Below, in pieces: positions 10,162-22,882 of a stretch of 58,376 nt of DNA. The stretch comes from Tyzzerella sp. (lineage in GTDB: Bacteria > Bacillota > Clostridia > Lachnospirales > Lachnospiraceae). The stretch is from positions 1 through 58,376 of the forward strand of contig JAFQDE010000003.1 in NCBI GenBank assembly GCA_017416155.1. Direction: 5' to 3'. The number at the start of each line of letters is the position of its first letter. Within the stretch, counting starts at the first letter, position 1. The position numbers and the translations under genes were made by a program. Under the pieces are notes generated by a model. That model saw only the letters and a list, made by a program, of their open reading frames with translations. It was not told the DNA's origin and did not search any database.

Positions 10162-11220
10162 ATGAGAAAATGGTGGTATCAGCGGATTCTCGTCATCATC
10201 TTAGTATTGGCGATGACGATGGGAACCGGTTTTGGAGTGCAGCAATTAGAGGCAAGTGAAGAAAAACAGATTGTCAGCAGTAAAGGGAGCAATGCACAAT
10301 ATGTAATCCCGGGAGGGATGGCAATTGGTATTTACATGGAAACAGATGGTGTGCTCGTTTTGTCAACAGATTGCATAGAATGTATCGATGGAAATGAGTA
10401 CGAGCCGGCAAAGAATCTCGTAAAAGCTGGTGATTATATTATTGGTATGAATGGGGAGAAAATCGAAAACAAAAGACAACTAGTACAAGCAGTAAACAAG
10501 TTAGAGAACTCAGAAGTAATATTAGAAATACGCAGAGATGAGGAATGTATTAAGATAAAAATGCAATCGGTTGAAGTTAAAAACGACCAGTACAAGTTGG
10601 GAATTTGGGTCAAAGACAGTGTACAAGGTCTTGGAACGCTTACTTATCTTACAATGGATGGTAAGTTTGGTGCGTTGGGACACGGGATTCATGATTCCGA
10701 GACAAACGAGCTGATTGAGATAGAAAAAGGTTCTGTTTATAACACGAATATTATTGGAATACAAAAAGGACAAAAAGGCGAACCCGGTGGTTTAGAAGGA
10801 GTTATTATATACAGAAGCAGTAATAAACTTGGTGTGATTAGTGAAAATACAGAAGACGGGATATATGGTTCTATCAACAAGATAGAAACACTTTGCGGAG
10901 ATATAGAACCTGTCGAGATATGTAAAAAAGAAGATATTCGATTGGGAAAAGCAACAATATTGTGCTGTGTCAACGGAATGGTTGAAGAGTATGACATTAA
11001 GATAAAAAATATAGATTCCTATGCGAAAGATGCGAACAAAGGAATAATTATTGAAGTGACGGATAAAAAATTGCTGGAATTGACAGGAGGAATTGTACAG
11101 GGAATGAGTGGAAGTCCGATACTTCAAGATGGAAAGATTGTTGGTGCGATAACGCACGTTCTAGTAAATGACCCGACAAGAGGGTATGGGATATTTATCG
11201 AAGATATGATAAAGCAATGA
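10162..11220 (+). CDS. spoIVB: SpoIVB serine peptidase (sporulation signalling)
   Basis: A 352-residue S55-family protease. In Bacillus it is made in the forespore and cleaves SpoIVFA to trigger sigma-K activation. It shows an N-terminal membrane anchor (~7-27), a PDZ-like region (~55-130), a catalytic-type His in GALGHGI (~174) and the Ser motif GMSGSP (~314-319), followed by [15 protein letters not shown]. Its ribosome site is GGAGGG. The last 117 nt, from codon 315 onward, are duplicated at 13473-13589 on the far side of the island. spo0A, normally the next gene, lies 14.7 kb away. Confidence 0.94.
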   Translation: MRKWWYQRILVIILVLAMTMGTGFGVQQLEASEEKQIVSSKGSNAQYVIPGGMAIGIYMETDGVLVLSTDCIECIDGNEYEPAKNLVKAGDYIIGMNGEKIENKRQLVQAVNKLENSEVILEIRRDEECIKIKMQSVEVKNDQYKLGIWVKDSVQGLGTLTYLTMDGKFGALGHGIHDSETNELIEIEKGSVYNTNIIGIQKGQKGEPGGLEGVIIYRSSNKLGVISENTEDGIYGSINKIETLCGDIEPVEICKKEDIRLGKATILCCVNGMVEEYDIKIKNIDSYAKDANKGIIIEVTDKKLLELTGGIVQGMSGSPILQDGKIVGAITHVLVNDPTRGYGIFIEDMIKQ

Positions 11221-11237
11221 GTCCGTGCAGAAATCGG

Positions 11238-11285
11238 AAATAGCAGACAGCGTAAGCTTGCTTACTGGCTGGTCTGCTATTTTTG
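11238..11285 (+). terminator. Terminator after spoIVB
   Basis: AAATAGCAGAC (11238-11248) pairs with GTCTGCTATTT (11272-11282), enclosing a second hairpin, GTAAG/CTTAC (252-256 and 261-265 of the 11-kb block), and ends in a T-run. It marks the left edge of the island. Confidence 0.7.
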
Positions 11286-11388
11286 ATTTATATTCGGCGA
11301 ATGCCGAACAGCGAGAAGTAGTAAAACGGATTCGAGCTGGTGCACGGCATAATACTGATGCAAGCTTGCTTGTATGAGCAGCTTTTTC

Positions 11389-11435
11389 TTGACATTTTTA
11401 CATGCATACTTTACGATTAAAATACGCAATGCGTA
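11389..11435 (+). promoter_or_regulatory. Island promoter with a palindromic operator
   Basis: TTGACA (11389-11394), a 17-nt spacer and TACGAT (11412-11417) form a near-consensus promoter. A 13-nt perfect palindrome, TACGCA-A-TGCGTA (11423-11435), covers the predicted start of transcription, the right place for a repressor. The HTH protein encoded next is the natural candidate. Confidence 0.6.
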
Positions 11436-11461
11436 ATGATATATATGGGAAGGTACAAGAT

Positions 11462-11650
11462 TTGAGTAGTAAGGATGAATTAATAGAATTAAGACAAAGT
11501 ACAGGAATGAACAGAAAGCAGTTTTGCGACTATTTTCAGATTCCGTATAGGACAATGACTGATTGGGAACTTGGTAACAGAACGATGCCGGACTACTTAT
11601 TGAGATTAATGGCATACAAGGTGAATGTTGAAAAACTAGCAAGGAACTGA
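11462..11650 (+). CDS. Small helix-turn-helix regulator
   Basis: A 62-residue protein consisting of one HTH: DELIELRQSTGMNRKQFCDYF then QIPYRTMTDWELGNRTMPDYLLRLM, a Cro/C1-like pattern. Such single-domain proteins are common on mobile elements and often repress their own promoter. I chose the TTG at 11462 because GGAAGG lies 8 nt upstream and the predicted transcript starts near 11424. The frame is open back to an ATG at 11402, but that lies inside the promoter spacer. It opens the island operon, 24 nt before the BRO gene. Confidence 0.6.
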   Translation: MSSKDELIELRQSTGMNRKQFCDYFQIPYRTMTDWELGNRTMPDYLLRLMAYKVNVEKLARN

Positions 11651-11674
11651 AAATAAGTGAAAGGATAAAAAAAT

Positions 11675-12544
11675 ATGAATACAGAGCAATTACAATTATT
11701 TGAAGAACAGACAATCCGAACAGCATGGGATGAAGAAAACGAAGAATGGTATTTTTCGATTGTAGATGTAGTCGGTGTTTTGACAGAAAGCGTAGACGCG
11801 ACTAGTTATTGGCGTAAATTAAAACAAAGATTAAAAGAAGAAGGAAATGAAACCGTGACAAATTGTCACGCTTTGAAAATGAAAGCGGCAGATGGCAAAA
11901 GACGATTTACAGATGTTGCCAACACAGAACAACTTCTTCGTATTATTCAATCTATCCCTTCTAAAAAAGCGGAACCATTCAAACTATGGTTGGCACAAGT
12001 GGGACGAGAACGAATGGAAGAAACAATGGATCCGGAACTTATTGCAGAACGTTTGATTGCTACATATGAACGAAAAGGTTATACCAAAGAGTGGATTAAT
12101 CAAAGATTGCAAGCCATTAGCGCACGAAAAGAGTTGACCGATGAATGGAAAGACAGAGGTGTGTCTAGTGTAAAGGAATATGCCATCTTAACAGATGAAA
12201 TTACAAAGGCATGGAGTGGAATGACTACAAGGCAATATAAAACGCATAAAGGATTAAAAAAAGAGAGTTTGCGCGATAATATGAGTACAACAGAGTTAGT
12301 TCTAAACATGTTAGCCGAAACTGCAACAAAAGATATTTCTAGGGTTGCAAAGCCAAATGGATTTGAGGAAAATAAACAAGTTGCAAAAAGGGGTGGTTCT
12401 GTAGCAGACGTTGCAAGAATGGCTCTGGAAGAACAAACTGGGATTCCGGTTATTACAAGTCAAAATGCAATACAACTCAATCATGTTGTAGGAGCGATGA
12501 TAGAAGCAAGTGTATCTATCACAGATGAGGAATCGAAAGGATAA
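11675..12544 (+). CDS. BRO-N domain protein, DinD/antirepressor-like
   Basis: A 289-residue protein. Residues ~10-110 form a BRO-N domain (TIRTAWDEENEEWYFSIVDVV, SYWRKLKQRL, LLRIIQSIPSKKAEPFKLWLAQVG), found in phage antirepressors and in DinD. The middle (AISARKELTDEWKDRGVSS, EYAILTDEITKAWSGMTTRQY) resembles the DinD-type C-terminal region. DinD is SOS-induced in E. coli and inhibits RecA, but that role is only a guess here. It follows the HTH gene and its frame ends 5 nt before the start I use for the next gene. Confidence 0.7.
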   Translation: MNTEQLQLFEEQTIRTAWDEENEEWYFSIVDVVGVLTESVDATSYWRKLKQRLKEEGNETVTNCHALKMKAADGKRRFTDVANTEQLLRIIQSIPSKKAEPFKLWLAQVGRERMEETMDPELIAERLIATYERKGYTKEWINQRLQAISARKELTDEWKDRGVSSVKEYAILTDEITKAWSGMTTRQYKTHKGLKKESLRDNMSTTELVLNMLAETATKDISRVAKPNGFEENKQVAKRGGSVADVARMALEEQTGIPVITSQNAIQLNHVVGAMIEASVSITDEESKG

Positions 12545-12548
12545 ACAA

Positions 12549-13448
12549 ATGAAAATAATAAACGACTATTTAGATAATGTATTATATAAGCAGTTACGAG
12601 AAATAAATATGCCGTACCGTTTTATAAAACAGATTCAAGAAGATATAAAATTGAGAATGTTATCATGTTTGGCTTATTGGACTGATATAGAAAGCAGAAA
12701 TACTATTTTATTTCTTTCACTAGAGGAAGCATTATTCTACGAGCCAAGTACAGTTCAGAAGTATCTGCGTGAATTCGTGGTAACTACTATCAGAAATAGC
12801 ATGATTGAAGTTGCGGCAAGTGATGATTTCCGAATATTTAAAATATCTGAGCCATTATCAAATGAGCAAGTAAAACAAATTACTTTTGAAGCAATTCAAT
12901 ATTTTAATAATTACGATATGAATAAATTAGCGAATGATGTCATTGGTATAGAGAATGAACAAAATGTATATAGCATGGCGAAGAAAAAGTTTCCTTTGGC
13001 TTGGGATGTTCTGCATCAAATAGCAAACCTAGACGGGTATAAAATGAAAATAGAGAAAACAGAACAATTTCATAGAGAAAAACTAGAACTAAAATATGGA
13101 GCAGAGTTGAAAACTGTGGTATGTAATGGGTTCACATTAGAATTCGATGAAACTTTGAAGGGAATTCTTGGGGATATAATCGCAGATAAGAATAATTGTT
13201 TTTATTCCGATTGTTTTAAAATGGTTTCTAGAAATTTTGAAAAGGTTCTTCATGTCTTGCAAATTATATTAGAGAATGACAAGGTTTTTTGTACGAGCAA
13301 TTATTATATCAGTTGTAACTATATTGAAAAGCGGAAGAAGATATTGAGAGCGGCTCATAATTCCCAGGACGCAATCAAGAACATGAATTGTGATGGGGCT
13401 CCAAATGTGATAAGAGAATGCATTGATACAATGATGGGAGGCAATTAA
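12549..13448 (+). CDS. Hypothetical protein of the island
   Basis: A 299-residue protein I do not recognise. It looks soluble and mostly helical, with no signal peptide or membrane segment. It contains Cys in NNCFYSDCFKM and SNYYISCNYIEKRKK but no clear metal motif. The start at ATG 12549 has AAAGG about 8 nt upstream and sits 4 nt past the BRO gene, so the two are probably co-translated. Base composition is more AT-rich than the housekeeping genes. The function may be tied to the BRO protein. Confidence 0.6.
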   Translation: MKIINDYLDNVLYKQLREINMPYRFIKQIQEDIKLRMLSCLAYWTDIESRNTILFLSLEEALFYEPSTVQKYLREFVVTTIRNSMIEVAASDDFRIFKISEPLSNEQVKQITFEAIQYFNNYDMNKLANDVIGIENEQNVYSMAKKKFPLAWDVLHQIANLDGYKMKIEKTEQFHREKLELKYGAELKTVVCNGFTLEFDETLKGILGDIIADKNNCFYSDCFKMVSRNFEKVLHVLQIILENDKVFCTSNYYISCNYIEKRKKILRAAHNSQDAIKNMNCDGAPNVIRECIDTMMGGN

Positions 13449-13472
13449 TGTTGGTCCTATATTGACACACAC

Positions 13473-13589
13473 GTGAGTGGAAGTCCAATACTTCAAGATG
13501 GAAAGATAGTGGGTGCTGTAACGCATGTGCTGGTGAATGATCCGACAAGAGGCTATGGAATTTTCATAGAGGATATGCTAAAGCAATAA
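13473..13589 (+). pseudogene. Orphan 3' end of spoIVB
   Basis: These 117 nt encode 38 residues that match residues 315-352 of the intact SpoIVB: 35 of 38 amino acids and 98 of 117 bases agree. Most of the 19 base differences are silent, so the copy diverged while still under selection, not as a fresh tandem duplicate. It includes the SGSP active-site motif and the true stop. No start codon or ribosome site belongs to it. Homology stops abruptly just before the Ser codon. Confidence 0.85.
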
Positions 13590-13605: not shown

Positions 13606-13645
13606 AAGACGACATATCAGAGTGATGATATGTCGTCTAAAATTT
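13606..13645. terminator. Bidirectional terminator between the spoIVB fragment and the MATE gene
   Basis: AGACGACATATCA (13607-13619) pairs perfectly with TGATATGTCGTCT (13626-13638) around a 6-nt loop. It can serve transcripts arriving from both sides. Confidence 0.7.
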
Positions 13646-13653
13646 TGTATGAC

Positions 13654-15126
13654 TTATTTTTCACTTTTTAGTTTAATTAATTTCCATTTTCCGCTGTTGT
13701 AACGTTGTAGTACCAATGCAGAACGTAGAATCTGGTCAGTCGCCAGCGCAGCCCATGCTCCATATAATCCGAGACCAAATTTAACTAATACAATTGCAAC
13801 AATAGGTCGAACCAGAAGAACAGTAATAAATGTAAAGATGGCAGTTGCACGCGTGTCACCTGCACCGCGAAGCCCACCGGCGATAATAAACTGTGAACTT
13901 TGGAACGGCTGTAAGAATGCAACGAACAACATAATCTGTCCACCGATTCGAATAATTCCAGGGTCGCTGTTATATAATCCTACGATTTCTCCACCAAACA
14001 AAATGAATATAGCAGCAAGTATCAATGAAAAAGCAAGACCAACTTTTCGTGTTCGGCTACAGTAAGCTTGTGCCATATCAGTTCGCTTTTTTCCTAGCGA
14101 TTGACCCATCATAGTCGTTGCAGATACTGCAAACGCCTGTCCGGTCATGAAAGACAATGCCTGAATATTCATGCACACCTGATGTGTTGCATAAGCTGTT
14201 GTACCGAGGCTCGCAACTGTCTTTGCAAAGATAATCATACCGGCACGCATAAGAAGTTGTTCCACCATTGCAGGCAAACCAATGTGGATCATGTTCCCAA
14301 GAACGATTTTGTCAGGATTGAATCCCAGTTTAAATTCTAATTTAAGGAAATCATTTCCTCGAACAATTACAACAAACGCCATAATAAATGCAACGATTTG
14401 TCCAATGACAGTTGCGAGTGATGCACCTGCGACACCGAGTTTCGGGAATCCAAGATTACCATAGATGAGTAGCCAGTTAAAAACAACATTGACTAGATTG
14501 GCAATCAGGTTATAAATCATACTAGTCTTTGAATCACCAACTGCACGTAATGCTGCAGTAATGGTACTTGTTAGGGCAAAACTTAAGAAGCCAATCATCT
14601 GAATCTGTAGATATTGCGATGCCCAACGGGTTACAATGTCTTCTGTTGAACCCATGAAAATTACCATTGGTCTTGCAAATAGGTATCCAAGGATAGAGAG
14701 AACCACTGTTGCACAGAATGTAAAGAGTAAGCCTTGTCGTACAACTAAATTTGCTTGATTTTTTTCATTGGTTCCGCGGTTCCTAGCAATAAGTGCAGTA
14801 ACACCTGTATTCATGGCGACAAATGCAGTCATAAGAAGGAACTTGGGTTGTGTGGTTAAGCCCACCGCAGCAAGTGCCTGTGTTCCAATTTCCGGATGTG
14901 CTTTTCCACCCATAGAACCAACCATCATAAGGTCAACCATGGAGGCAAGTTGTGTGAGCAATAGCTCCACGAAGCTTGGCCATGCAATTCGAATAATGTC
15001 TCTATATAGTTCTTTGGATGTTACTCCTTCAGGAAGCATTTTGGTTACCTTTAAGTCATCTGAGAGATTCTCATCGCCGTAGGGGAGTTTGTCCAATGTT
15101 GTCTGTAATTTTGTATTTGCACTCAA
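13654..15126 (-). CDS. MATE-family multidrug/cation antiporter
   Basis: A 490-residue membrane protein with the two six-helix bundles of MATE exporters (Na+- or H+-driven efflux of organic cations). The N-terminal block has IAWPSFVELLLTQLASMVDLMMVG, and the second half repeats the pattern (IGLPAMVEQLLMRAGMIIFAK). I prefer the TTG at 15126, which has AGAAGG 8 nt upstream; a GTG at 15135 has its ribosome site almost touching it. It is divergent from the SCIFF gene. The substrate cannot be told, and any role in exporting the peptide is speculation. Confidence 0.88.
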   Translation of the reverse strand: MSANTKLQTTLDKLPYGDENLSDDLKVTKMLPEGVTSKELYRDIIRIAWPSFVELLLTQLASMVDLMMVGSMGGKAHPEIGTQALAAVGLTTQPKFLLMTAFVAMNTGVTALIARNRGTNEKNQANLVVRQGLLFTFCATVVLSILGYLFARPMVIFMGSTEDIVTRWASQYLQIQMIGFLSFALTSTITAALRAVGDSKTSMIYNLIANLVNVVFNWLLIYGNLGFPKLGVAGASLATVIGQIVAFIMAFVVIVRGNDFLKLEFKLGFNPDKIVLGNMIHIGLPAMVEQLLMRAGMIIFAKTVASLGTTAYATHQVCMNIQALSFMTGQAFAVSATTMMGQSLGKKRTDMAQAYCSRTRKVGLAFSLILAAIFILFGGEIVGLYNSDPGIIRIGGQIMLFVAFLQPFQSSQFIIAGGLRGAGDTRATAIFTFITVLLVRPIVAIVLVKFGLGLYGAWAALATDQILRSALVLQRYNSGKWKLIKLKSEK

Positions 15127-15169
15127 TGGATTCACCTTCTTATTTGTTATTACTTTTTATTATAGTTTA

Positions 15170-15198
15170 TTGACTTTCAGGAATCAATATGGTAGTCT
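15170..15198 (+). promoter_or_regulatory. Probable promoter of the SCIFF gene
   Basis: TTGACT (15170-15175), a 17-nt spacer and a weak TAGTCT (15193-15198) lie about 40 nt upstream of the peptide start. A TATAAA begins at 15199. The other strand of the same 100-nt gap contains TATAAT for the MATE gene, so this is a divergent promoter region. Confidence 0.4.
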
Positions 15199-15237
15199 TA
15201 TAAAATAAGATGACATTAAAGATTGGAGATAATGACA

Positions 15238-15384
15238 ATGGAAAGAATTAAAACATTAGAGACACGTAACTTATGTGAAAGTGCACAAAACGGTGGATGC
15301 GGAGAATGTCAGACATCTTGCCAGTCAGCTTGCAAAACAAGTTGCGGTGTTGCAAATCAATCTTGTGAAAACACAGAAAAATAA
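15238..15384 (+). CDS. scfA: SCIFF ranthipeptide precursor (six cysteines in forty-five residues)
   Basis: A 48-residue peptide with a leader (MERIKTLETRNLC) and a Cys-rich core containing CGECQTSCQSACKTSC followed by GVANQSC. This core is the near-invariant SCIFF signature of Clostridia. Cysteines fall at 13, 21, 24, 28, 32, 36 and 43: the usual six plus one in the leader. Radical-SAM maturases of this family add Cys-to-Thr thioether links; the function of the product is not settled. GGAG lies 9 nt before ATG 15238; an ATG at 15232 is too close to that site. The maturase gene follows after a terminator-like hairpin. Confidence 0.93.
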   Translation: MERIKTLETRNLCESAQNGGCGECQTSCQSACKTSCGVANQSCENTEK

Positions 15385-15392
15385 GTACTTAT

Positions 15393-15424
15393 AAAAGGTG
15401 CCGCCACTTAGACGGCACTTTTTT
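15393..15424 (+). terminator. Attenuating terminator between the SCIFF peptide and its maturase
   Basis: GTGCCG pairs with CGGCAC around a 9-nt loop inside 15393-15424, with flanking A and T runs (six T). A leaky terminator here would give much more precursor peptide than enzyme, as is usual for RiPP operons. Confidence 0.7.
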
Positions 15425-15500
15425 ATGCTAGGTCCTCTGGAATCAAATGCTTCGCGAGGATGCACAGAGGGAATATATAATGTTAGGAGAAATACACAAC

Positions 15501-16889
15501 ATGGTACATCAATATAAATTAAATGGATACAACATTGTTTTGGATACATGCTCGGGAGCAGTTCATGTGGTAGACGAAGTGGCTTACGATGTCATTGAAA
15601 TGTATCCGGTTAAGTCTGCAAGTGAGATTGTAACAGAGCTGCTAGAAAAGTATAAGGGCAGAGAAGATGTGACGGAAGAGGAGCTTCGTCTTTGTATTGA
15701 AGATGTGGAGATACTTGTTAATGCGAAGAAGCTCTATACAGAGGACAATTTCGAATCAATGGCTGGAACCTTCAAGGAGCGTTCCGGAAATATTGTGAAA
15801 GCGTTGTGCCTTCACGTAGCACATACTTGTAACCTGAATTGTTCGTATTGTTTTGCGAGCCAAGGTAAATACCACGGTGAACGTGCGATTATGAGTTATG
15901 AAGTTGGAAAACGTGCGTTGGATTTCTTAATCGAGAATTCTGGAACAAGAAGAAATCTTGAAGTGGATTTCTTTGGTGGTGAGCCACTTATGAATTGGGA
16001 TGTGGTAAAGGATTTAGTTAAATATGCCCGTAGCGTGGAAAAAGAACATAACAAAAATTTCCGTTTTACCCTTACTACGAACGGAATGCTTATTGATGAG
16101 GATGTTATTGAGTTTGCGAATAAAGAGATGAGTAATGTTGTATTGAGTTTAGATGGACGTAAGGAGATTCATGACCTGACTCGTGTAGACTATGCCGGAA
16201 ACGGAAGCTATGAGCGCATTGTGCCGAAGTTTAAGGAATTAGTGGATTCCCGTGGTGGAGAGGGCTACTACATGCGAGGTACATTTACGCATGCGAATCC
16301 AGACTTTACCCAAGATGTGTTCCATATGGCAGATTTGGGATTCACAGAGCTTAGCATGGAGCCGGTTGTAGCTGCACCAGACGATCCAATGGCACTCACA
16401 TCGGAGGATTTGGAGATTGTCAAGGAACAATACGAGATTCTTGCAAAAGAGATGATTAAGCGTAACAGAGAAGGACGAGGATTTACCTTCTATCATTATA
16501 TGATTGATTTGACAGCAGGCCCATGTATTTATAAAAGAATATCTGGTTGTGGTTCCGGAACAGAATATATGGCTGTAACTCCTTGGGGTGATTTGTATCC
16601 ATGCCATCAGTTTGTGGGTGAAGAGGAATATAAATTAGGTGATATTTGGAATGGTGTGACAAACGATGGTTTACGTGAAGAATTCCGAAACTGCAATGCT
16701 TATACGAGAGAAGATTGTAAGGATTGTTGGGCAAAATTATATTGTTCCGGTGGTTGCGCGGCAAATGCATATCATGCAACGGGAACGATTCGTGGCATCT
16801 ATCAACCGGGATGTGAACTCTTTAAGAAACGTATTGAATGTGCAATTATGATTAAAGTTGCAGAGGATGTAGCAAAAGGAGAAAAATAA
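15501..16889 (+). CDS. scfB: SCIFF radical-SAM maturase
   Basis: A 462-residue radical SAM enzyme. Residues ~1-85 form a peptide-recognition region (MVHQYKLNGYNIVLDTCSGAV...), followed by the radical-SAM motif CNLNCSYCFASQG, the FFGGEPLMNWD strand, and a C-terminal SPASM region with further Cys (CKDCWAKLYCSGGCAANAY) for auxiliary Fe-S clusters. The family installs thioether crosslinks in the SCIFF peptide encoded upstream. I chose ATG 15501, which has TTAGGAG about 11 nt upstream and matches the family's usual N-terminus. The next gene starts 2 nt after its stop. Confidence 0.93.
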   Translation: MVHQYKLNGYNIVLDTCSGAVHVVDEVAYDVIEMYPVKSASEIVTELLEKYKGREDVTEEELRLCIEDVEILVNAKKLYTEDNFESMAGTFKERSGNIVKALCLHVAHTCNLNCSYCFASQGKYHGERAIMSYEVGKRALDFLIENSGTRRNLEVDFFGGEPLMNWDVVKDLVKYARSVEKEHNKNFRFTLTTNGMLIDEDVIEFANKEMSNVVLSLDGRKEIHDLTRVDYAGNGSYERIVPKFKELVDSRGGEGYYMRGTFTHANPDFTQDVFHMADLGFTELSMEPVVAAPDDPMALTSEDLEIVKEQYEILAKEMIKRNREGRGFTFYHYMIDLTAGPCIYKRISGCGSGTEYMAVTPWGDLYPCHQFVGEEEYKLGDIWNGVTNDGLREEFRNCNAYTREDCKDCWAKLYCSGGCAANAYHATGTIRGIYQPGCELFKKRIECAIMIKVAEDVAKGEK

Positions 16890-16890
16890 A

Positions 16891-18225
16891 ATGAATACAC
16901 CGATTGCAGATTTTGTAAGAGGTTATGAAAAACGGAATATGACAAGACTACATATGCCAGGTCACAAAGGTCAGGCAATTGTAGGATGTGAGGGTTTTGA
17001 TATTACTGAGGTTGCAGGTGCGGATTCTCTCTATGAAGCAACTGGCATCATTGCGGAGAGTGAGATAAATACGACTAAGCTTTTTGGAACAGCAAGGACT
17101 GTGTATTCGACGGAAGGTTCCAGTCAATGTATTCGTGCGATGTTATACCTTGCGATGACAAATCACAAAGGTAAAGAAAAACCGATAGTTGTTGCGACAA
17201 GAAATGCACACAAAGCATTTTTATACGCAGTTGCTATGTTGGATTTGGAAGTTGAGTGGATATGGCCAGAAGAAACAGGGTCACTATGCAGTTGTACGAT
17301 TACAGAAAAGATTTTGGAAGATACTTTGGTAAATATGAAGGAACGACCAATTGCGGTCTATGTAACGAGTCCGGATTATCTGGGAGGACAATTGGATATT
17401 CCAAGTATTGCAGAGGTGTGCCATAAGAATGATACCATTTTGGCAGTAGATAATGCGCATGGTGCTTATTTGCGTTTTTTAAGTCCGAGTCAGCATCCAA
17501 TGGATTTGGGAGCGGACATCTGTTGTGATTCGGCGCACAAGACATTGCCAGTACTTACCGGAGGAGCTTATTTACATATTGGGAAATCTGCTCCAAAGCA
17601 CTTTGCGCAACAAGCAAAACAGGCGATGGCACTTTTTGGTTCTACAAGTCCGTCATATTTGATTCTCATATCCTTAGATATTTGTAATTCTTATTTATCA
17701 GAGAAATATAGTGAATTGTTACTTCGGACGATTCAACAAGTATATGAGTTAAAAAACAATTTAAGAAAAATGGGTTGGCAGATTTTAGATACAGAACCGT
17801 TAAAAATGACAGTTCGAATGCCAAAAGGTTTGTCTGGAATTCAGAAGGCAAAGATGCTTCGAGAGGCTAATGTAGAATGCGAGTATGCCGATGCAGAGTA
17901 TATTGTATGCATGTTTACACCGGAAAATTTGGAGGAGGATTATGAGCGTACCATACATGCATTTGATGAAAATTGTGAATTATATGAAGAACAGACAGAA
18001 TTGCAGATATCAAAATGTATTCGTGCAATCTCAATTCGAGAGGCAATGTTTTCTCAGCAGGAAACAATACCAGTAGAAGATGCTATGGGACGTATTTGTG
18101 GAACACCGGCAGTATCGTGTCCACCGGCAATACCAATCGTGATTGCAGGTGAAGTGATTGATGAAGATGCAATAAACGTCTTCGAACATTATGGAATCAA
18201 AAGCGTAGATGTTGTAAAAGAATAG
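16891..18225 (+). CDS. PLP-dependent Orn/Lys/Arg decarboxylase-like enzyme
   Basis: A 444-residue fold-type I PLP enzyme of the SpeA/YaaO decarboxylase group. It starts PIADFVRGYEKRNMTRLHMPGHKG, typical of this group. DNAHGAYLRF carries the Asp that pairs with the cofactor, and DSAHKTLPVLTGGAYLH carries the Schiff-base Lys. The likely reaction is decarboxylation of arginine, lysine or ornithine to a polyamine precursor; the substrate is not decided by sequence. It directly follows scfB, with GGAG in the end of that gene, and precedes the ABC-F gene by 10 nt, so it is probably in the same operon. Confidence 0.82.
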   Translation: MNTPIADFVRGYEKRNMTRLHMPGHKGQAIVGCEGFDITEVAGADSLYEATGIIAESEINTTKLFGTARTVYSTEGSSQCIRAMLYLAMTNHKGKEKPIVVATRNAHKAFLYAVAMLDLEVEWIWPEETGSLCSCTITEKILEDTLVNMKERPIAVYVTSPDYLGGQLDIPSIAEVCHKNDTILAVDNAHGAYLRFLSPSQHPMDLGADICCDSAHKTLPVLTGGAYLHIGKSAPKHFAQQAKQAMALFGSTSPSYLILISLDICNSYLSEKYSELLLRTIQQVYELKNNLRKMGWQILDTEPLKMTVRMPKGLSGIQKAKMLREANVECEYADAEYIVCMFTPENLEEDYERTIHAFDENCELYEEQTELQISKCIRAISIREAMFSQQETIPVEDAMGRICGTPAVSCPPAIPIVIAGEVIDEDAINVFEHYGIKSVDVVKE

Positions 18226-18235
18226 GAAGAAAAAT

Positions 18236-19888
18236 ATGATTCAAATAGATGAGTTATCTTATGGATTTCCGGACAAGGAATTATATAAAGAAGTTTCATT
18301 CACATTAAAAGACGGCGTGCATTGTGCATTTATCGGAAGTAATGGTACAGGTAAAACAACTCTTGTTCACATGATGATGCATCCGGATGAGTATCTTTAT
18401 GATGGGAAGATTATTTGCGATGAGAACTGTAGAATCGGTTATGTGAGTCAGTTTTCAAAAGAGGAGAAGAACCAGGGGATCACAGTATTTGCATTTTTAA
18501 GTGAAGTGTTTGTAAAGAATCAGGAAGAGACGGCACTTGTCTGTGAGAAGATGGCAACTGCTGAGGATTTGGAACCGGTCTATGAAGAGTATCAGAGTCT
18601 GATTGATGAGTTTCAGGCGATGGATGGAGATAACTATGAGAGCAACATTCGCAAGCAACTCAAGGTAGTAGGAATGCAGCAACACGAGCACACATTGTTA
18701 TCACAACTTAGTGGCGGAGAGTATAAGCTTTTGCATGTCATGAAAGAAATGTTATTGCAACCGAATCTTCTGGTAATGGATGAACCGGATGTGTTTCTAG
18801 ATTTTGATAATTTAAACGGACTTTGCGAACTGATTAATTCTTACAAGGGGACTTTGCTTGTGATCACGCATAACCGTTATCTTTTGAATCATTGTTTTGA
18901 TAAGATTTTGCATTTAGAAGATACAGATATACAGGAATTTGACGGAAATTATGTAGACTATAACTTCGCGCTTCTGCAGAAAAAAATCGAATTGCAGGAA
19001 AAGGCGGCGGCGGATAAAGAAGAGATTGCGAGAAATGAAGAGATCGTTGACCGTATGCGTACAGCCGCCACAGTCGCAAGTATCGCAGCACTTGGAAGAG
19101 CCGTGCATGCAAGGCAAACTCACCTAGACAGACTTCGTGCAAGACAAATCAAAGAACCATTTTTAGACGTGAAGATGCCGGAAATTGTACTTCCGAAAGT
19201 GGAATCAGATCCGGAAAAGGTAGTACTCAGTGTATGGGATTATGAGGTTGCATTCGATGAACTTTTATTATCTGATGTATGTTTCGAACTGCATGAGGGT
19301 GAGAAGGTGGCGATAGTTGGACCAAACGGAACAGGCAAGACGACGCTTCTTCGAGATATTTATAAAAATAGGCACCCATCTATCACCATAGGAGAAGATG
19401 TGAAGGTGGGCTTCTTGTCGCAGATTTATACAGAGGATGAGCGTAAACAGGAGGATTGGCTCTCGGGCGGCGAGCAGAATTTAGTGCAGATTGAAGAAAT
19501 ATGTAACAGTGATGCTAATTTACTTTTATTAGACGAACCGACCAGCCATTTAGATACCAATTCGCAGATTGCTTTGGAAAAGGCGATTAGTGAGTACAAA
19601 GGTGCGGTACTGATGGTTTCTCATGATTTTTATAATATTGTGAACTGCGCTGATTATGTACTTTTTGTGGATGACAAATCTATCCGCCGCATGCGAATTC
19701 GTTCCTTCCGAAAGATGATATATGAGAATCATTTTGATAAGGATTATTTGGAATTGGAACAAAAGAAAAAAGAGTTGGAGACTCGCATCACAAATGCACT
19801 GAAAAGTTCAGATATTAAGACGGCAAAACAACTTTGTGAGCAGTTAGGAGAGGTGGTTGAAAAATTATGCAAAACATCCCTAAACTAA
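18236..19888 (+). CDS. ABC-F family ATPase (ribosome-associated)
   Basis: A 550-residue protein with two ATP-binding cassettes and no membrane segments. Cassette 1 has GSNGTGKTT, LSGGEYK and LLVMDEPDVFLD; cassette 2 has GPNGTGKTT, LSGGEQN and LLLLDEPTSHLD. The linker at ~250-310 is basic and helical (AALGRAVHARQTHLDRLRA). ABC-F proteins act on the ribosomal E site as translation factors or antibiotic-resistance (target protection) proteins; I cannot tell which. It ends overlapping a short DUF89 fragment by 22 nt. Its place behind the SCIFF and decarboxylase genes suggests co-transcription. Confidence 0.85.
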   Translation: MIQIDELSYGFPDKELYKEVSFTLKDGVHCAFIGSNGTGKTTLVHMMMHPDEYLYDGKIICDENCRIGYVSQFSKEEKNQGITVFAFLSEVFVKNQEETALVCEKMATAEDLEPVYEEYQSLIDEFQAMDGDNYESNIRKQLKVVGMQQHEHTLLSQLSGGEYKLLHVMKEMLLQPNLLVMDEPDVFLDFDNLNGLCELINSYKGTLLVITHNRYLLNHCFDKILHLEDTDIQEFDGNYVDYNFALLQKKIELQEKAAADKEEIARNEEIVDRMRTAATVASIAALGRAVHARQTHLDRLRARQIKEPFLDVKMPEIVLPKVESDPEKVVLSVWDYEVAFDELLLSDVCFELHEGEKVAIVGPNGTGKTTLLRDIYKNRHPSITIGEDVKVGFLSQIYTEDERKQEDWLSGGEQNLVQIEEICNSDANLLLLDEPTSHLDTNSQIALEKAISEYKGAVLMVSHDFYNIVNCADYVLFVDDKSIRRMRIRSFRKMIYENHFDKDYLELEQKKKELETRITNALKSSDIKTAKQLCEQLGEVVEKLCKTSLN

Positions 19889-20037
19889 AATCCACTTGTG
19901 TTAGTTGTATGTTAAATAGCAGAATCAACCAATTCCCTGAGGGTGCACCGGAAGAAAAGAAGGTTGAGTATATGACAAGAGTTCTAAAAGAACTCGGTGA
20001 GATGAATAGTCCAATGCTAGTGAAAGAAAATGGTTGA
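19867..20037 (+). pseudogene. Truncated DUF89 (ARMT1-like) gene
   Basis: This 56-residue reading frame begins MQNIPKLKSTCVSCML and continues NQFPEGAPEEKKVEYMTRVLKELGEM. It resembles only the N-terminal helical part of DUF89-type damage-control phosphatases (with the CxxC near the start), which are normally about 280 residues or more. It stops at 20037, and the -35 box of the following promoter overlaps that stop. The rest of the gene is absent. It overlaps the ABC-F gene by 22 nt and has AGGAG about 16 nt upstream. The family call rests on a short match. Confidence 0.5.
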
Positions 20038-20062
20038 TAATGTTGATTTGTTGTGTTATACT
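20034..20062 (+). promoter_or_regulatory. Promoter of the cobalamin-riboswitch transcript
   Basis: TTGATA (20034-20039), a 17-nt spacer and TATACT (20057-20062) place the transcript start just before the riboswitch. The -35 box overlaps the stop codon of the DUF89 fragment. Confidence 0.6.
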
Positions 20063-20087
20063 CCTCGTGTCAAAGTAAATAAGAACA

Positions 20088-20285
20088 TGATAGGTGTCAT
20101 ACGAGATTTATCTCTGTATGGTGAAAAGGGAAGCAGGTGTAAGTCCTGCACGAACTCGTCGCTGTAACGTAGGAGTTTTGTTTCATTTATGTCACTGGCA
20201 TAAGCTGGGAAGACGAAACAAGGTGTTGATTACGAAGTCAGAAGACCTGCCTATGATGGTACTGGAAGACCACGAGTAATTGGTT
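20088..20285 (+). promoter_or_regulatory. Cobalamin (B12) riboswitch
   Basis: The leader shows the AdoCbl riboswitch landmarks in order: GAAAAGGGAAGCAGGTG and GTAAGTCCTGCACG (paired core), CGCTGTAAC, the GTCACTGG...GCTGGGAAGAC block (close to the B12-box GCCACTG...GGGAAGG) and AAGTCAGAAGACCTGCC (compare AAGCCAGGAGACC). A terminator hairpin follows at 20327-20362, so B12 most likely shuts down the downstream DUF4430 and ECF genes by early termination. The exact 5' limit is approximate. Confidence 0.9.
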
Positions 20286-20326
20286 AGTACATGATGAAGA
20301 AACTCTAGTTTTCTTTTGGTGTTACG

Positions 20327-20362
20327 ACCTTTTGTTTGTGTGTGCAGGCAAAAGGTTTTTTT
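20327..20362 (+). terminator. Riboswitch-controlled terminator
   Basis: ACCTTTTG (20327-20334) pairs with CAAAAGGT (20349-20356), followed by a strong T-run. It lies between the B12 aptamer and the first gene, as an expression platform should. Confidence 0.75.
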
Positions 20363-20406
20363 ATTTGCTTCTGACAAATAAACCAAAAGAAAAGGAGAAA
20401 AGAAAA

Positions 20407-20814
20407 ATGAACAAAAAGAAAGTGATACTGGGCTCCGGAATTCTTGTCGTTTTGATTGTGGCAATGACACTCATCTGGACAAATTTTCGTGAGAAACCGG
20501 TAGAAGGAAGTAAGGCTATTACCATCGAGGTGGTAGATAGCAAAGGGAAGTCCACGGTATATGAATTGAAGACAAATGCAAAGTATTTAATCAATGCTAT
20601 GGATGAAGCCAAAGAACAGGGGCTTAGTTACGAAGGCGAAGAGGGACCATATGGTCTTAGTATCAGTAAAGTAAATGGCGAACGCGCAGACTACACATTA
20701 GACGGCGCTTACTGGGGGTTTAATGTAAATGGAGAGTATTGTAACCTCGGAGTGTCAAAGCAACCGGTAGAGGATGGAGATGAATTTGAGATTGTCTATA
20801 CAAAAGCAGAGTAA
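20407..20814 (+). CDS. DUF4430 (transcobalamin-like) protein, membrane-anchored
   Basis: A 135-residue protein with one N-terminal membrane segment (~5-26) and an extracellular domain containing YLINAMDEAKEQGLSYE, YTLDGAYWGFNVNGEYCNLGV and QPVEDGDEFEIVYTKAE. This is the DUF4430 fold, related to the C-terminal domain of vertebrate transcobalamin/intrinsic factor. ATG 20407 has AAAGGAG upstream. It is controlled by the B12 riboswitch and overlaps an ECF S-component gene, so binding of cobalamin or a corrinoid at the cell surface is a reasonable inference. There is no lipobox; the protein would stay anchored by its helix. Confidence 0.8.
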   Translation: MNKKKVILGSGILVVLIVAMTLIWTNFREKPVEGSKAITIEVVDSKGKSTVYELKTNAKYLINAMDEAKEQGLSYEGEEGPYGLSISKVNGERADYTLDGAYWGFNVNGEYCNLGVSKQPVEDGDEFEIVYTKAE

Positions 20815-21316
20815 GAGGTTAACCGCACGAGATATTACAATCATGGCGCTTATGGTTGCAATTATAGAAGTCAGTAAAGTTGCACTTGCTCAGATTCCAA
20901 ATGTAGAACTTACAAGCTTTTGGATTATTATGTTTACACTATATTTTGGAACCCGTATATTCTATGTTATTCCCGTATTTATTTTGATAGAGGGTGTTAT
21001 ATATCCGTTTGGGTTGTGGTGGATTATGTATTTATACTCGTGGCCGTTATTGGCGATTGTTGTTTTAGTATTGAGGAAAATGAAGTCGGCATGGGAATGG
21101 AGTTTTATATCGGGACTATTTGGTCTTTCTTTTGGGTTCCTATGTGCAATTCCATATATTTTTACGAGTGGATTTCTCGGAGCATTTGTTTGGTGGGTGG
21201 AAGGAATCCCGTGGGACTTGTTACATGGAATCGCAAATTTTGCCATTATGCTGATACTATATAAGCCAATCAAAAACGTAATGTCCAAAATGAATCGTGT
21301 GGAAAAGGAAATTTAA
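20774..21316 (+). CDS. ECF transporter S component (predicted cobalamin/corrinoid uptake)
   Basis: A 180-residue integral membrane protein with 5-6 hydrophobic helices (ITIMALMVAIIEVSKVA, FWIIMFTLYFGTRIFY and others), the size and layout of ECF S components. These bind one vitamin and share an energising EcfA/A'/T module, which is not encoded here. The B12 riboswitch and the DUF4430 neighbour point to cobalamin or a precursor. The start is uncertain: ATG 20774 overlaps the upstream gene by 41 nt, and TTG codons near 20786 are possible. A strong terminator follows. Confidence 0.75.
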   Translation: MEMNLRLSIQKQSKRLTARDITIMALMVAIIEVSKVALAQIPNVELTSFWIIMFTLYFGTRIFYVIPVFILIEGVIYPFGLWWIMYLYSWPLLAIVVLVLRKMKSAWEWSFISGLFGLSFGFLCAIPYIFTSGFLGAFVWWVEGIPWDLLHGIANFAIMLILYKPIKNVMSKMNRVEKEI

Positions 21317-21346
21317 AGAAAGTGGGTCTTCCCACTTTCTTTTTTT
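21315..21346 (+). terminator. Terminator of the B12-controlled operon
   Basis: AAAGAAAGTGGG (21315-21326) pairs with CCCACTTTCTTT (21331-21342) around a TCTT loop, ending in seven T. Confidence 0.85.
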
Positions 21347-21414
21347 GTGGAACGTGCTATACTTTGTAAATGAATACAGTAACACAATATAGTACAGAAA
21401 AGAGATGACTTAAG

Positions 21415-22776
21415 ATGGCTAAAGGCAAGGCAAAAAATTATCAAATGGATATGTGTAATGGTCCGATATTAAAAAAGATGTTGCTTTTTACAATCCCACT
21501 GATATGCTCCAGCGTGTTACAACTTTTGTTCAATGCGGCGGATGTAATTGTAGTAGGAAAATATGCGGGGGATCATGCGCTTGCGGCTGTTGGTTCTAAT
21601 ACATCTTTAATAAATTTATTCGTGAATTTCTTTATGGGATTGTCCATTGGTGCGAATGTCCTAGTTTCCAGATACTATGGGGCAAAACAGGAGAAAGAAT
21701 TGAGCGAGACAGTCCACACGGCAATTGCTGTCAGTCTTGTAAGTGGAATTGCATTGGCAATTCTCGGGGTCGCATTATCGCCAACGATTCTAAGATGGAT
21801 GCAGGTTCCGAAAAAGGTTTTGGGGTTAGCCATTGTTTATCTGAGAGTTTATTTTGTTGGTATGCCGGCATTGATGTTATACAATTTTGGTGCAGCAATT
21901 TTGCGAGCGATTGGCGACACAAAAAGACCATTATATTTTCTCGCAGTAGCTGGTGTAGTGAATGTAACATTGAATCTGTTTTTTGTCATTGCATTAGACT
22001 GGAGCGTGTTTGGTGTTGCTCTTGCAACAGTGATTTCGCAAGTAATTTCTGCCTGGTTTGTTCTTCGATGTCTTATGAAAGAAACAGGTGGAATACGTGT
22101 GGAAATCAAAAAACTTTATATTCACAAGGATAAAATCAAAAGAATGCTGCAGATTGGTGTTCCGGCTGGATTACAGAGTGTATTGTTCTCTATTTCAAAC
22201 GTACTCATTCAATCGTCTATCAACAGTTTTGGTGCAACTGTTGTGGCAGGAAATTCAGCGGCTGGGAATATTGAAGGTTTTGTTTATGCTGCGATGAATG
22301 CTTTTTATCAGGCAAATATTTCCTTTACCAGTCAGAATATGGGTGCAGGTAAATATCATCGTTTAAATCGGATTTTGTTGACGGCATTAGGATGCGTAAC
22401 AGTAACGGGACTTGTCGCCGGTGTGTCATGTTATGTGGTAGGTCCTACGTTGTTGTCGTTATATACGAACAGTTCGAGGGTTATTGCTGCAGGTATGGTT
22501 CGATTAGGATATATTTGCTTACCTTATTTTATCATAGGTATTATGGAAGTTATGGTAGGTTCGCTTCGCGGAATGGGTTATGCAGTCCTTCCAATGATTG
22601 TATCGCTTGTTGGAACCTGTGCATTTCGAATCGTATGGTTGCAGACCATATTCCAAATAGACAGATTTCATAATATTGAGGTCGTGTATGCTGTTTATCC
22701 AATCACTTGGGTTGTAACGACAATTGCTCATGTTATAACGTATATTATTGTAAAACGAAAATTGATTGAGAAATAA
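21415..22776 (+). CDS. MATE-family efflux transporter (second copy)
   Basis: A 453-residue MATE exporter with twelve hydrophobic segments. The N-terminal motif is PLICSSVLQLLFNAADVIVVGKYAG, repeated in the second half as GVPAGLQSVLFSISNVLIQSSINSFG, as expected from the internal duplication of this family. It differs clearly in sequence from the MATE protein on the other strand at 13654, so it is not a recent duplicate. It probably exports organic cations or drugs in exchange for Na+ or H+. A TATACT at 21358-21363 may be its -10 box. The gene stands alone between two terminators. Confidence 0.88.
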   Translation: MAKGKAKNYQMDMCNGPILKKMLLFTIPLICSSVLQLLFNAADVIVVGKYAGDHALAAVGSNTSLINLFVNFFMGLSIGANVLVSRYYGAKQEKELSETVHTAIAVSLVSGIALAILGVALSPTILRWMQVPKKVLGLAIVYLRVYFVGMPALMLYNFGAAILRAIGDTKRPLYFLAVAGVVNVTLNLFFVIALDWSVFGVALATVISQVISAWFVLRCLMKETGGIRVEIKKLYIHKDKIKRMLQIGVPAGLQSVLFSISNVLIQSSINSFGATVVAGNSAAGNIEGFVYAAMNAFYQANISFTSQNMGAGKYHRLNRILLTALGCVTVTGLVAGVSCYVVGPTLLSLYTNSSRVIAAGMVRLGYICLPYFIIGIMEVMVGSLRGMGYAVLPMIVSLVGTCAFRIVWLQTIFQIDRFHNIEVVYAVYPITWVVTTIAHVITYIIVKRKLIEK

Positions 22777-22780
22777 AGAA

Positions 22781-22826
22781 AAGAATCTTTAGAAAATCTT
22801 TCGGATTTCCTAGAGGTTCTTTTTAG
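22781..22826 (+). terminator. Terminator after the MATE gene
   Basis: A long stem of about 18 bp (22781-22798 with 22803-22820, including G-U pairs) around a TTTC loop, followed by five T. Confidence 0.6.
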
Positions 22827-22882
22827 AATTAAAAGATATGATACAGACACATGAAAGAACTGTATCAGGCAAGGAGAGAGAA

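Follow-up and report, generated by a model that had tools for sequence, protein, structure and literature searches.

We analyzed a 58,376-nt stretch of DNA (the window; contig JAFQDE010000003.1) from a Tyzzerella sp. genome, G000, in which the 3' end of the sporulation gene spoIVB is present on both sides of a small island. The gene order is recN-spoIVB-island-MATE, recN being, like spo0A below, a name presumed from sequence and gene order. Base-by-base comparison from the TG of the Met315 codon showed that the last 116 nt of spoIVB recur downstream with 98 of 116 bases identical, and the codon changes between the two copies comprise 16 silent and 2 replacing ones. Homology sets in at a single TG, the second and third bases of the Met codon that precedes the catalytic Ser316. 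The flanks of the duplicated block are unalike: 7 of 30 bases agree just upstream of the TG, and 13 of 60 downstream of the stop codon. The runner-up ungapped match of the segment on either strand of the window reached 54 of 116, and a protein search of the whole genome recovered the displaced fragment at E = 1.9e-17. A preliminary description of the locus had reported mostly silent changes, a sharp start of homology and agreement at 98 of 117 bases and 35 of 38 residues; these figures hold when the A/G difference before the TG is counted as the 117th position and the Met/Val difference at codon 315 is included.

The repeated segment includes Ser316, and the spacing between Ser316 and Thr331 is 15, matching S378 and T393 of Bacillus subtilis SpoIVB (PMC12502668). 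From TG to TG the island measures 2369 bp, with a G+C content of 35.7% against 39.8% for the window. Directly 5' of the right copy stands GTTGGTCCTATATTGACACACACG, then TG; the conserved 25-nt end at this position was absent from the preliminary description. None of the three island genes encodes a recombinase, as had been stated. Coordinates are collected in Table 1.

Table 1. Features of the spoIVB locus in the window
Feature	Position	Strand	Basis
spoIVB, intact, 352 aa	10162..11220	+	Pfam Peptidase_S55, E 1.5e-81, matched to the C-terminus; PDZ_2, E 1.1e-4, below its cut-off
Left core dinucleotide TG in the Met315 codon, proposed crossover point	11105..11106	+	Onset of homology; spoIVB of G445 and G189 is split at this TG too
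Left spoIVB 3' copy, now the working gene end	11105..11220	+	98/116 identical to right copy
Small helix-turn-helix (HTH) protein, first cargo gene	11462..11650 (TTG start; alternative ATG 11402)	+	PHROG 8898, E 1.8e-12; weak NCBIfam matches below cut-off
Bro-N protein, PADLOC candidate defence gene PDC-S13	11675..12544	+	Pfam Bro-N, E 2.1e-11; PDC-S13, E 1.4e-133
299-aa protein of no family, last cargo gene	12549..13448	+	No Pfam, PADLOC, NCBIfam or PHROGs match at the cut-offs used
Conserved element end, putative P arm of the attachment site	13449..13473	+	End motif in 24/28 displaced copies
Right core dinucleotide TG	13474..13475	+	Junction comparison
Right (displaced) spoIVB 3' copy	13474..13589	+	98/116 identical to left copy; adjoining MATE gene common to empty-site relative G007
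Terminator-like hairpin 3' of the right copy	13607..13638	+	Consensus scan only

We tabulated 28 displaced spoIVB 3' copies from relatives and from virus-collection contigs. They were placed by tblastn starts, by counting from starts that lay a few codons off, or by eye when tblastn reported no start or a different one (G267, G189_2 and G008_3); a remnant in G077, the copies in G558 and an end-like sequence in G425 were left out. A TG lies at the junction in all 28, and in 24 it is immediately preceded by the conserved end, GTTGGTCC-N4-TTGACACA-NNC|TG, with at most two substitutions. The expression for this end was derived from the same 28 sequences, and pattern scans provide a partly independent check. 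A 21-nt pattern over 13460-13480 matched the window once at up to three mismatches, with 0.02 matches expected. Scans of 397 family genomes and 295 order genomes returned three sites besides the window (G189, G558 and G425), and the reversed control returned none. The G189 and G558 sites are true spoIVB copies; the G425 sequence has no spoIVB tail and was not counted. Two of the G558 copies carry the end and a third, partial one lacks it, as does the G077 remnant. The viral collection held no exact match to the end pattern, and a loose pattern for the left end returned noise only. In G189 a second end motif lies 2.2 kb downstream of the first (L058 7256-7281), with only the first bases of the spoIVB tail left behind it.

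Tandem large serine recombinases stand directly 5' of the end motif and spoIVB tail in 11 of the 28 copies (loci L053, L058, which is the same as L059, L060, L061, L062, L063, L064, L065, L072, L073 and L112). Each locus has three recombinases except L063, where the first gene is cut by the contig start, and all three of those in L053 match the Pfam Resolvase and Recombinase families. A search of relatives for a recombinase had been proposed for this island, and it is behind such trios that the same end was found. Closely related elements locate the boundary: over the 1500 nt that lead to the TG, those of G189, G443, G267 and G445 share 1372-1500 positions, yet past it their identity is only 56-78%; for three virus-collection contigs the corresponding figures are 1489-1494 positions and 67-88%. 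Since near-identical elements switch spoIVB tail at the TG, the tail behind the trio lies outside the element, and the element ends at the TG.

Trios at 48-49% in L066, L067, L069, L071 and L074, and a partial set in L068, have no spoIVB tail and therefore likely use other targets; the contigs of L070 and L075 end too soon to show theirs. Triple adjacent serine recombinases also occur in G005 (C7:2402725-2407622) and G006 (C6:31595-36413, C46:572-5479 and C13:61433-66291), two genus genomes whose spoIVB has no extra tail. At L073 (6584-7862) another serine recombinase gene starts about 150 nt behind the spoIVB tail, possibly marking a cassette with its own recombinase at its left end.

Two relatives carry spoIVB in a split form. 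The gene in G445 (L062; Lachnospiraceae bacterium RGIG2016, goat colon) and in G189 (RGIG8549, water deer cecum) encodes ...VQGM and passes at that point into element DNA, TTCACGAGTTATAATGGGAGCAAC, so that SpoIVB is broken ahead of its catalytic serine; the remainder of the gene lies behind the trio, on another contig. On paired contigs, then, spoIVB is split by an element at the same TG in both genomes. The contig bearing the split gene of G445 also encodes a relaxase, MobC, RadC and an adhesin. When the two outer ends are joined, the inferred attP is an imperfect palindrome around the TG: its arms match at 18 of 26 positions, a score that none of 20000 shuffles equalled. The attP sites of phage serine recombinases are generally imperfect palindromes (PMC5595907). 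The preliminary description had likened the island to skin elements. That comparison fails for the window island, because the window spoIVB is intact, and it stands for these two recombinase-bearing relatives. We conclude that integration of an element inside the spoIVB 3' end, as originally suggested, is strongly supported, because there is one precise boundary, a conserved end, a recombinase trio in relatives and a split gene in two of them.

A different layout occurs in G009, G008, G327 and G558: an intact spoIVB, then DNA in which no trio was detected, then the end motif and a further tail. The G009 array holds HTH and Bro-N genes followed by an AAA/DUF4143 ATPase module, and the G008 array holds a RhuM gene among others, followed by the same module. 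The interval in G327 spans about 10 kb, in which GmrSD-like and TOTE-primase helicase genes are found. In G558 (L129 827-2858) two successive cassettes encode related barnase-type ribonucleases, the first together with a barstar. G283 and G408 fit this layout, but across contig ends; G392 has an HTH gene and a DUF6036 gene before a tail that lacks the motif; and G363 has three tails, two with the end, together with RhuM/Fic and ToxN/AbiQ genes. We conclude that the window island is a recombinase-less cassette of a spoIVB-targeting family. The family is recurrent, its insertion is site specific at one TG, it is linked to recombinase trios identified in relatives, and it forms arrays; the window holds one cassette.

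How common are such loci? Of 10 genus genomes searched with SpoIVB, 4 (G000, G003, G008 and G009) have extra 3' fragments, confined to about residue 309 onward. The other six, relatives without the island, with which a comparison had been advised, matched SpoIVB once each, without a further fragment. Across the family, 259 of 397 genomes have a SpoIVB match, and 7 of the 25 multi-match genomes that were searched again carry 3' fragments (G182, G283, G327, G363, G392, G394 and G408). Together with G000, G003 and G189, which belongs to the same family as the window genome, at least 10 of the 259 family genomes carry extra copies; the pattern scan of the order genomes added one more case, the array of G558, from another family. 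Copies paired without intervening DNA were seen at none of the loci read, and an ancestral tandem duplication was rejected, no full-length second spoIVB standing beside the gene at these loci. As separate observations, the spoIVB of G001 (L016), a relative without extra 3' copies, has two in-frame TGA codons, and L052, a 41-kb contig of the virus collection that has spoIVB at one end, looks like an ordinary spoIVB with a response-regulator gene downstream and was dropped.

The cargo of the window island comprises three genes. The match of the Bro-N protein to the PDC-S13 profile is near full length (residues 1-276 of 289), the family being one of candidate defence only, and no relative of solved structure was found for the protein at E 0.1. 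Between G000 and G009 the Bro-N gene is 88% identical in DNA over 891 nt, against 66% for spoIVB and 74% for recN. The ATPase module of G008 and G009 is 90% identical in DNA, and recN and spoIVB of the same pairs are at 66-74%. Cargo is thus shared horizontally across species. In G009 and G363, HTH genes similar in look to that of the window stand ahead of Bro-N or RhuM genes. A near relative of the window HTH gene is encoded elsewhere in the same genome (L051 3596-3790, on contig C29), with no Bro-N gene beside it among the listed open reading frames. For the 299-aa protein, a relative was found in 1 other genome of 98 examined (44% over residues 93-295) and none in the viral collection; its predicted structure, with a predicted local distance difference test score (pLDDT) of 34.5, is too low in confidence for use. 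Neither conjugation nor mobilisation genes were matched among the three island genes, and no integrase family was matched in the genes scanned, namely these three, spoIVB and the MATE gene. On contig C39 of the window genome (L124 1-11157), repeated Rhs-type C-terminal ends (GTRYYDPEIGRFI-like) alternate with RhuM-like genes and with a solitary large serine recombinase that is itself duplicated; this may be a second accretion site in the genome.

Which of the two window copies is native? By synteny, the right copy is probably the former chromosomal gene end: the MATE gene beside it is also present in G007, which has spoIVB without an island and two genes between spoIVB and the MATE gene. The left copy would then probably have been brought by the island. 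The proposal that the element restored the gene with its own copy accordingly divides into an integration that the junctions bear out and an origin of the left copy that synteny favours. A stretch after the left stop codon, GAGTCCGTGCGG, is shared by G008 and G408, while G000 differs from it by one change and G009 and G392 by more; the stretch is short and sits among repeats present at other loci too, and we did not use it as proof. Further downstream, the interval between spoIVB and a spo0A-family gene (13654-22837 in the window) is variable in the genus; it contains the MATE gene and others, partly common to G007 and G004. In the window the spo0A-family gene comes only after these approximately 9 kb; it lies directly 3' of spoIVB in G001, G005, G006, G041, G044 and G047.

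We think it likely that spoIVB is the attB of a family of elements moved by the recombinase trio and that the window island represents a tail-carrying class of cassette moved in trans. Strand exchange by the trio would fall on the TG in the methionine codon that precedes the catalytic-serine codon. Elements with their own recombinases, at least one of which also encodes a relaxase and MobC, would split spoIVB on insertion. The second class would consist of small cassettes without a recombinase that share the right end (P arm plus TG) and have a spoIVB 3' end as their left side. A cassette circle of the form P-TG-spoIVB3' could recombine with the chromosomal attB, B-TG-spoIVB3', giving the gene a new tail and pushing the old one 2.4 kb downstream. 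The recombinases would be supplied in trans by an element such as the trio carriers, and repeated events next to the gene would build the arrays of relatives. Cargo, here the Bro-N/PDC-S13 gene, may be kept because it protects against phages or competitors.

Several results weigh against this interpretation. P-TG-spoIVB3' and attB are not a canonical serine-integrase pair, and the window island has no recombinase. No spoIVB-type trio was found in the window genome, which is 84% complete and whose best match is a solitary recombinase about 29-30% identical, and in the array genomes G008 and G009, whose completeness is just 67% and 65%, no recombinase was matched at all. Among the contigs with trios, some are short or were probably placed in the wrong bin (G443 and G267); both split genes rest on contig pairs rather than one continuous sequence; and the G363 array is on a contig apart from the intact spoIVB, perhaps through misbinning. 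The motif is missing from 4 of the 28 copies (G003, G363_2, G392 and G394). The scan of the 397 genomes missed the copies in G182, G283, G327, G363 and G408, and the end-pattern scans are therefore insensitive. As to the origin of the left copy, a likeness equal to that among the left ends of nine island genomes was reached by 316 of 2000 permuted sets, and similarity of the left and right ends to the nearest island-free relatives did not single out the native copy. On the first of these points, CcrAB of the staphylococcal cassette chromosome (SCC) is said to accept noncanonical att pairs (PMC5595907).

How else might the locus have arisen? A recombinase-bearing element could have inserted and become immobile when deletions removed its recombinase and conjugation genes, with useful cargo retained. 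This would fit an island without a recombinase in a genome where no matching trio was found, and some copies in relatives are indeed decaying (G003, G394 and G077). We nevertheless regard such a dead relic as unlikely: the window end motif is intact, trio-less units of about 1.3-10 kb that vary in cargo but not in their end turn up repeatedly, across more than one genus and family, as expected of mobile units, and a shrunken split-gene insertion alone would not leave an intact left copy. We entertain more readily, if still tentatively, the possibility of a cassette-array system in which recombinase-less toxin-antitoxin or defence cassettes, each flanked by a spoIVB 3' end and a P half-site, are captured serially at the active-site codon of spoIVB by means of the trio of visiting conjugative elements. 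Each capture would replace the catalytic tail, so that only cassettes with a working tail would survive in spore formers; the parent elements, for their part, would split the gene as skin does.

Orphan Rhs or contact-dependent inhibition (CDI) tips are thought to arise by homologous recombination. An incoming spoIVB tail with its module might likewise recombine with the resident gene and displace tails: some 116 nt of similarity could support exchange, and the ribonuclease-barstar pair of G558 recalls Rhs/CDI-type arrays. Against this stand a boundary at one dinucleotide, a conserved noncoding end in 24 of 28 copies, recombinases directly before 11 of them and near-identical elements that switch exactly at the TG. 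We consider homologous recombination very improbable as the source of the window locus; as a founding mechanism it is strongly argued against, and it may reshuffle existing arrays. Least probable of all, in our judgment, is that displaced tails serve as spare ends that vary the SpoIVB protease tail by recombination. Many displaced copies are in frame, and the window differences are mostly silent, but the proteins encoded by the tails hardly differ (in the window, by 2 replacements beyond the core), several tails have degenerated, a deletion would cost the cargo as well, and none of the loci read showed an inverted arrangement.

With an origin by cassette insertion still the preferred account, the locus can be set beside known systems. 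Integrative and conjugative elements (ICEs) of streptococci with recombinase triplets disrupt mutT, traG and hsdM (PMC4701971). The gin element, with three recombinases, splits gerE of Bacillus cereus, and its excision in sporulation has been shown (PMC5595907). Both resemble the spoIVB family in having three large serine recombinases, insertion in a coding gene, a very short repeat and signs of horizontal transfer; gin is, in addition, seated in a sporulation gene, but two of its recombinases lie apart from the third, unlike the tandem spoIVB trios. The parts of PMC4701971 and PMC5595907 consulted do not mention spoIVB as a target. The three adjacent recombinases of the triplet ICEs have their counterpart in the loci of relatives, and the mobilisation genes in the relaxase and MobC of G445. 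The window cassette, by contrast, has neither recombinase nor mobilisation genes and leaves the gene whole, with the short TG core and the family end present.

Skin-type intervening elements sit in sigK, spsM, gerE and yabG, and those in sigK and gerE are tied to the mother cell (PMC5025042), in which excision would have no hereditary cost; vfbin is another intervening element (PMC5595907). Like them, the G445 and G189 elements break up a sporulation gene, which their precise excision would restore, whereas the window spoIVB is uninterrupted. The target of vfbin we take to be spoVFB. Transcription of spoIVB is under the forespore factor sigma G, according to the title of a cited reference. As the gene is expressed in the forespore, an excision needed to express it would pass into the spore line, which is not so in the mother cell. 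What serves skin in the mother cell would thus be unworkable at spoIVB, and the carrying of a tail would offer an alternative that may explain such cassettes.

Other systems make use of a gene end without splitting the gene. SCC elements target rlmH, insert at the end of this gene, which stays functional, and normally have their own ccr genes. Composites and CcrAB pairs are described for SCC (PMC5595907). Serine recombinases, insertion at a gene end with the gene left functional, and composites are common to SCC and the spoIVB family. They differ in the recombinases themselves and in the target, spoIVB rather than rlmH, and the cassette described here has no recombinase and carries a 116-nt gene tail. 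Phage 21 and e14 at icd of Escherichia coli bring a substitute 3' end with mostly silent differences, displace the native end and encode their own tyrosine integrase. The carried substitute end is what the window island would share with them; an element-encoded tyrosine integrase sets them apart from the spoIVB family, and they are not known to form arrays of recombinase-less cassettes. In integrons, the tyrosine integrase IntI adds small cassettes, most of them without a recombinase, to an array at a single anchor. The spoIVB arrays, too, consist of small recombinase-less units at one anchor site, but here the anchor is a protein-coding gene that each cassette would rebuild, and the enzymes linked to it are serine recombinases of the large type.

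We found no report of such elements inserting in spoIVB, or of insertion sites in sporulation genes of Lachnospiraceae, in a search that most subscription papers lay outside. By this search, spoIVB is an insertion hotspot without a report, located at the codon beside the catalytic serine of a protease that signals sigma-K activation. At this one site the cost of insertion has two answers: the gene is split, as by skin, or a new tail is supplied. The implied reaction, in which a P half-site joined to a gene tail recombines with attB, would be a direct test of what the recombinase trio is capable of. As candidate defence genes and a toxin-immunity pair are among the cargo of the arrays, spoIVB tails offer a handle for finding more of them.

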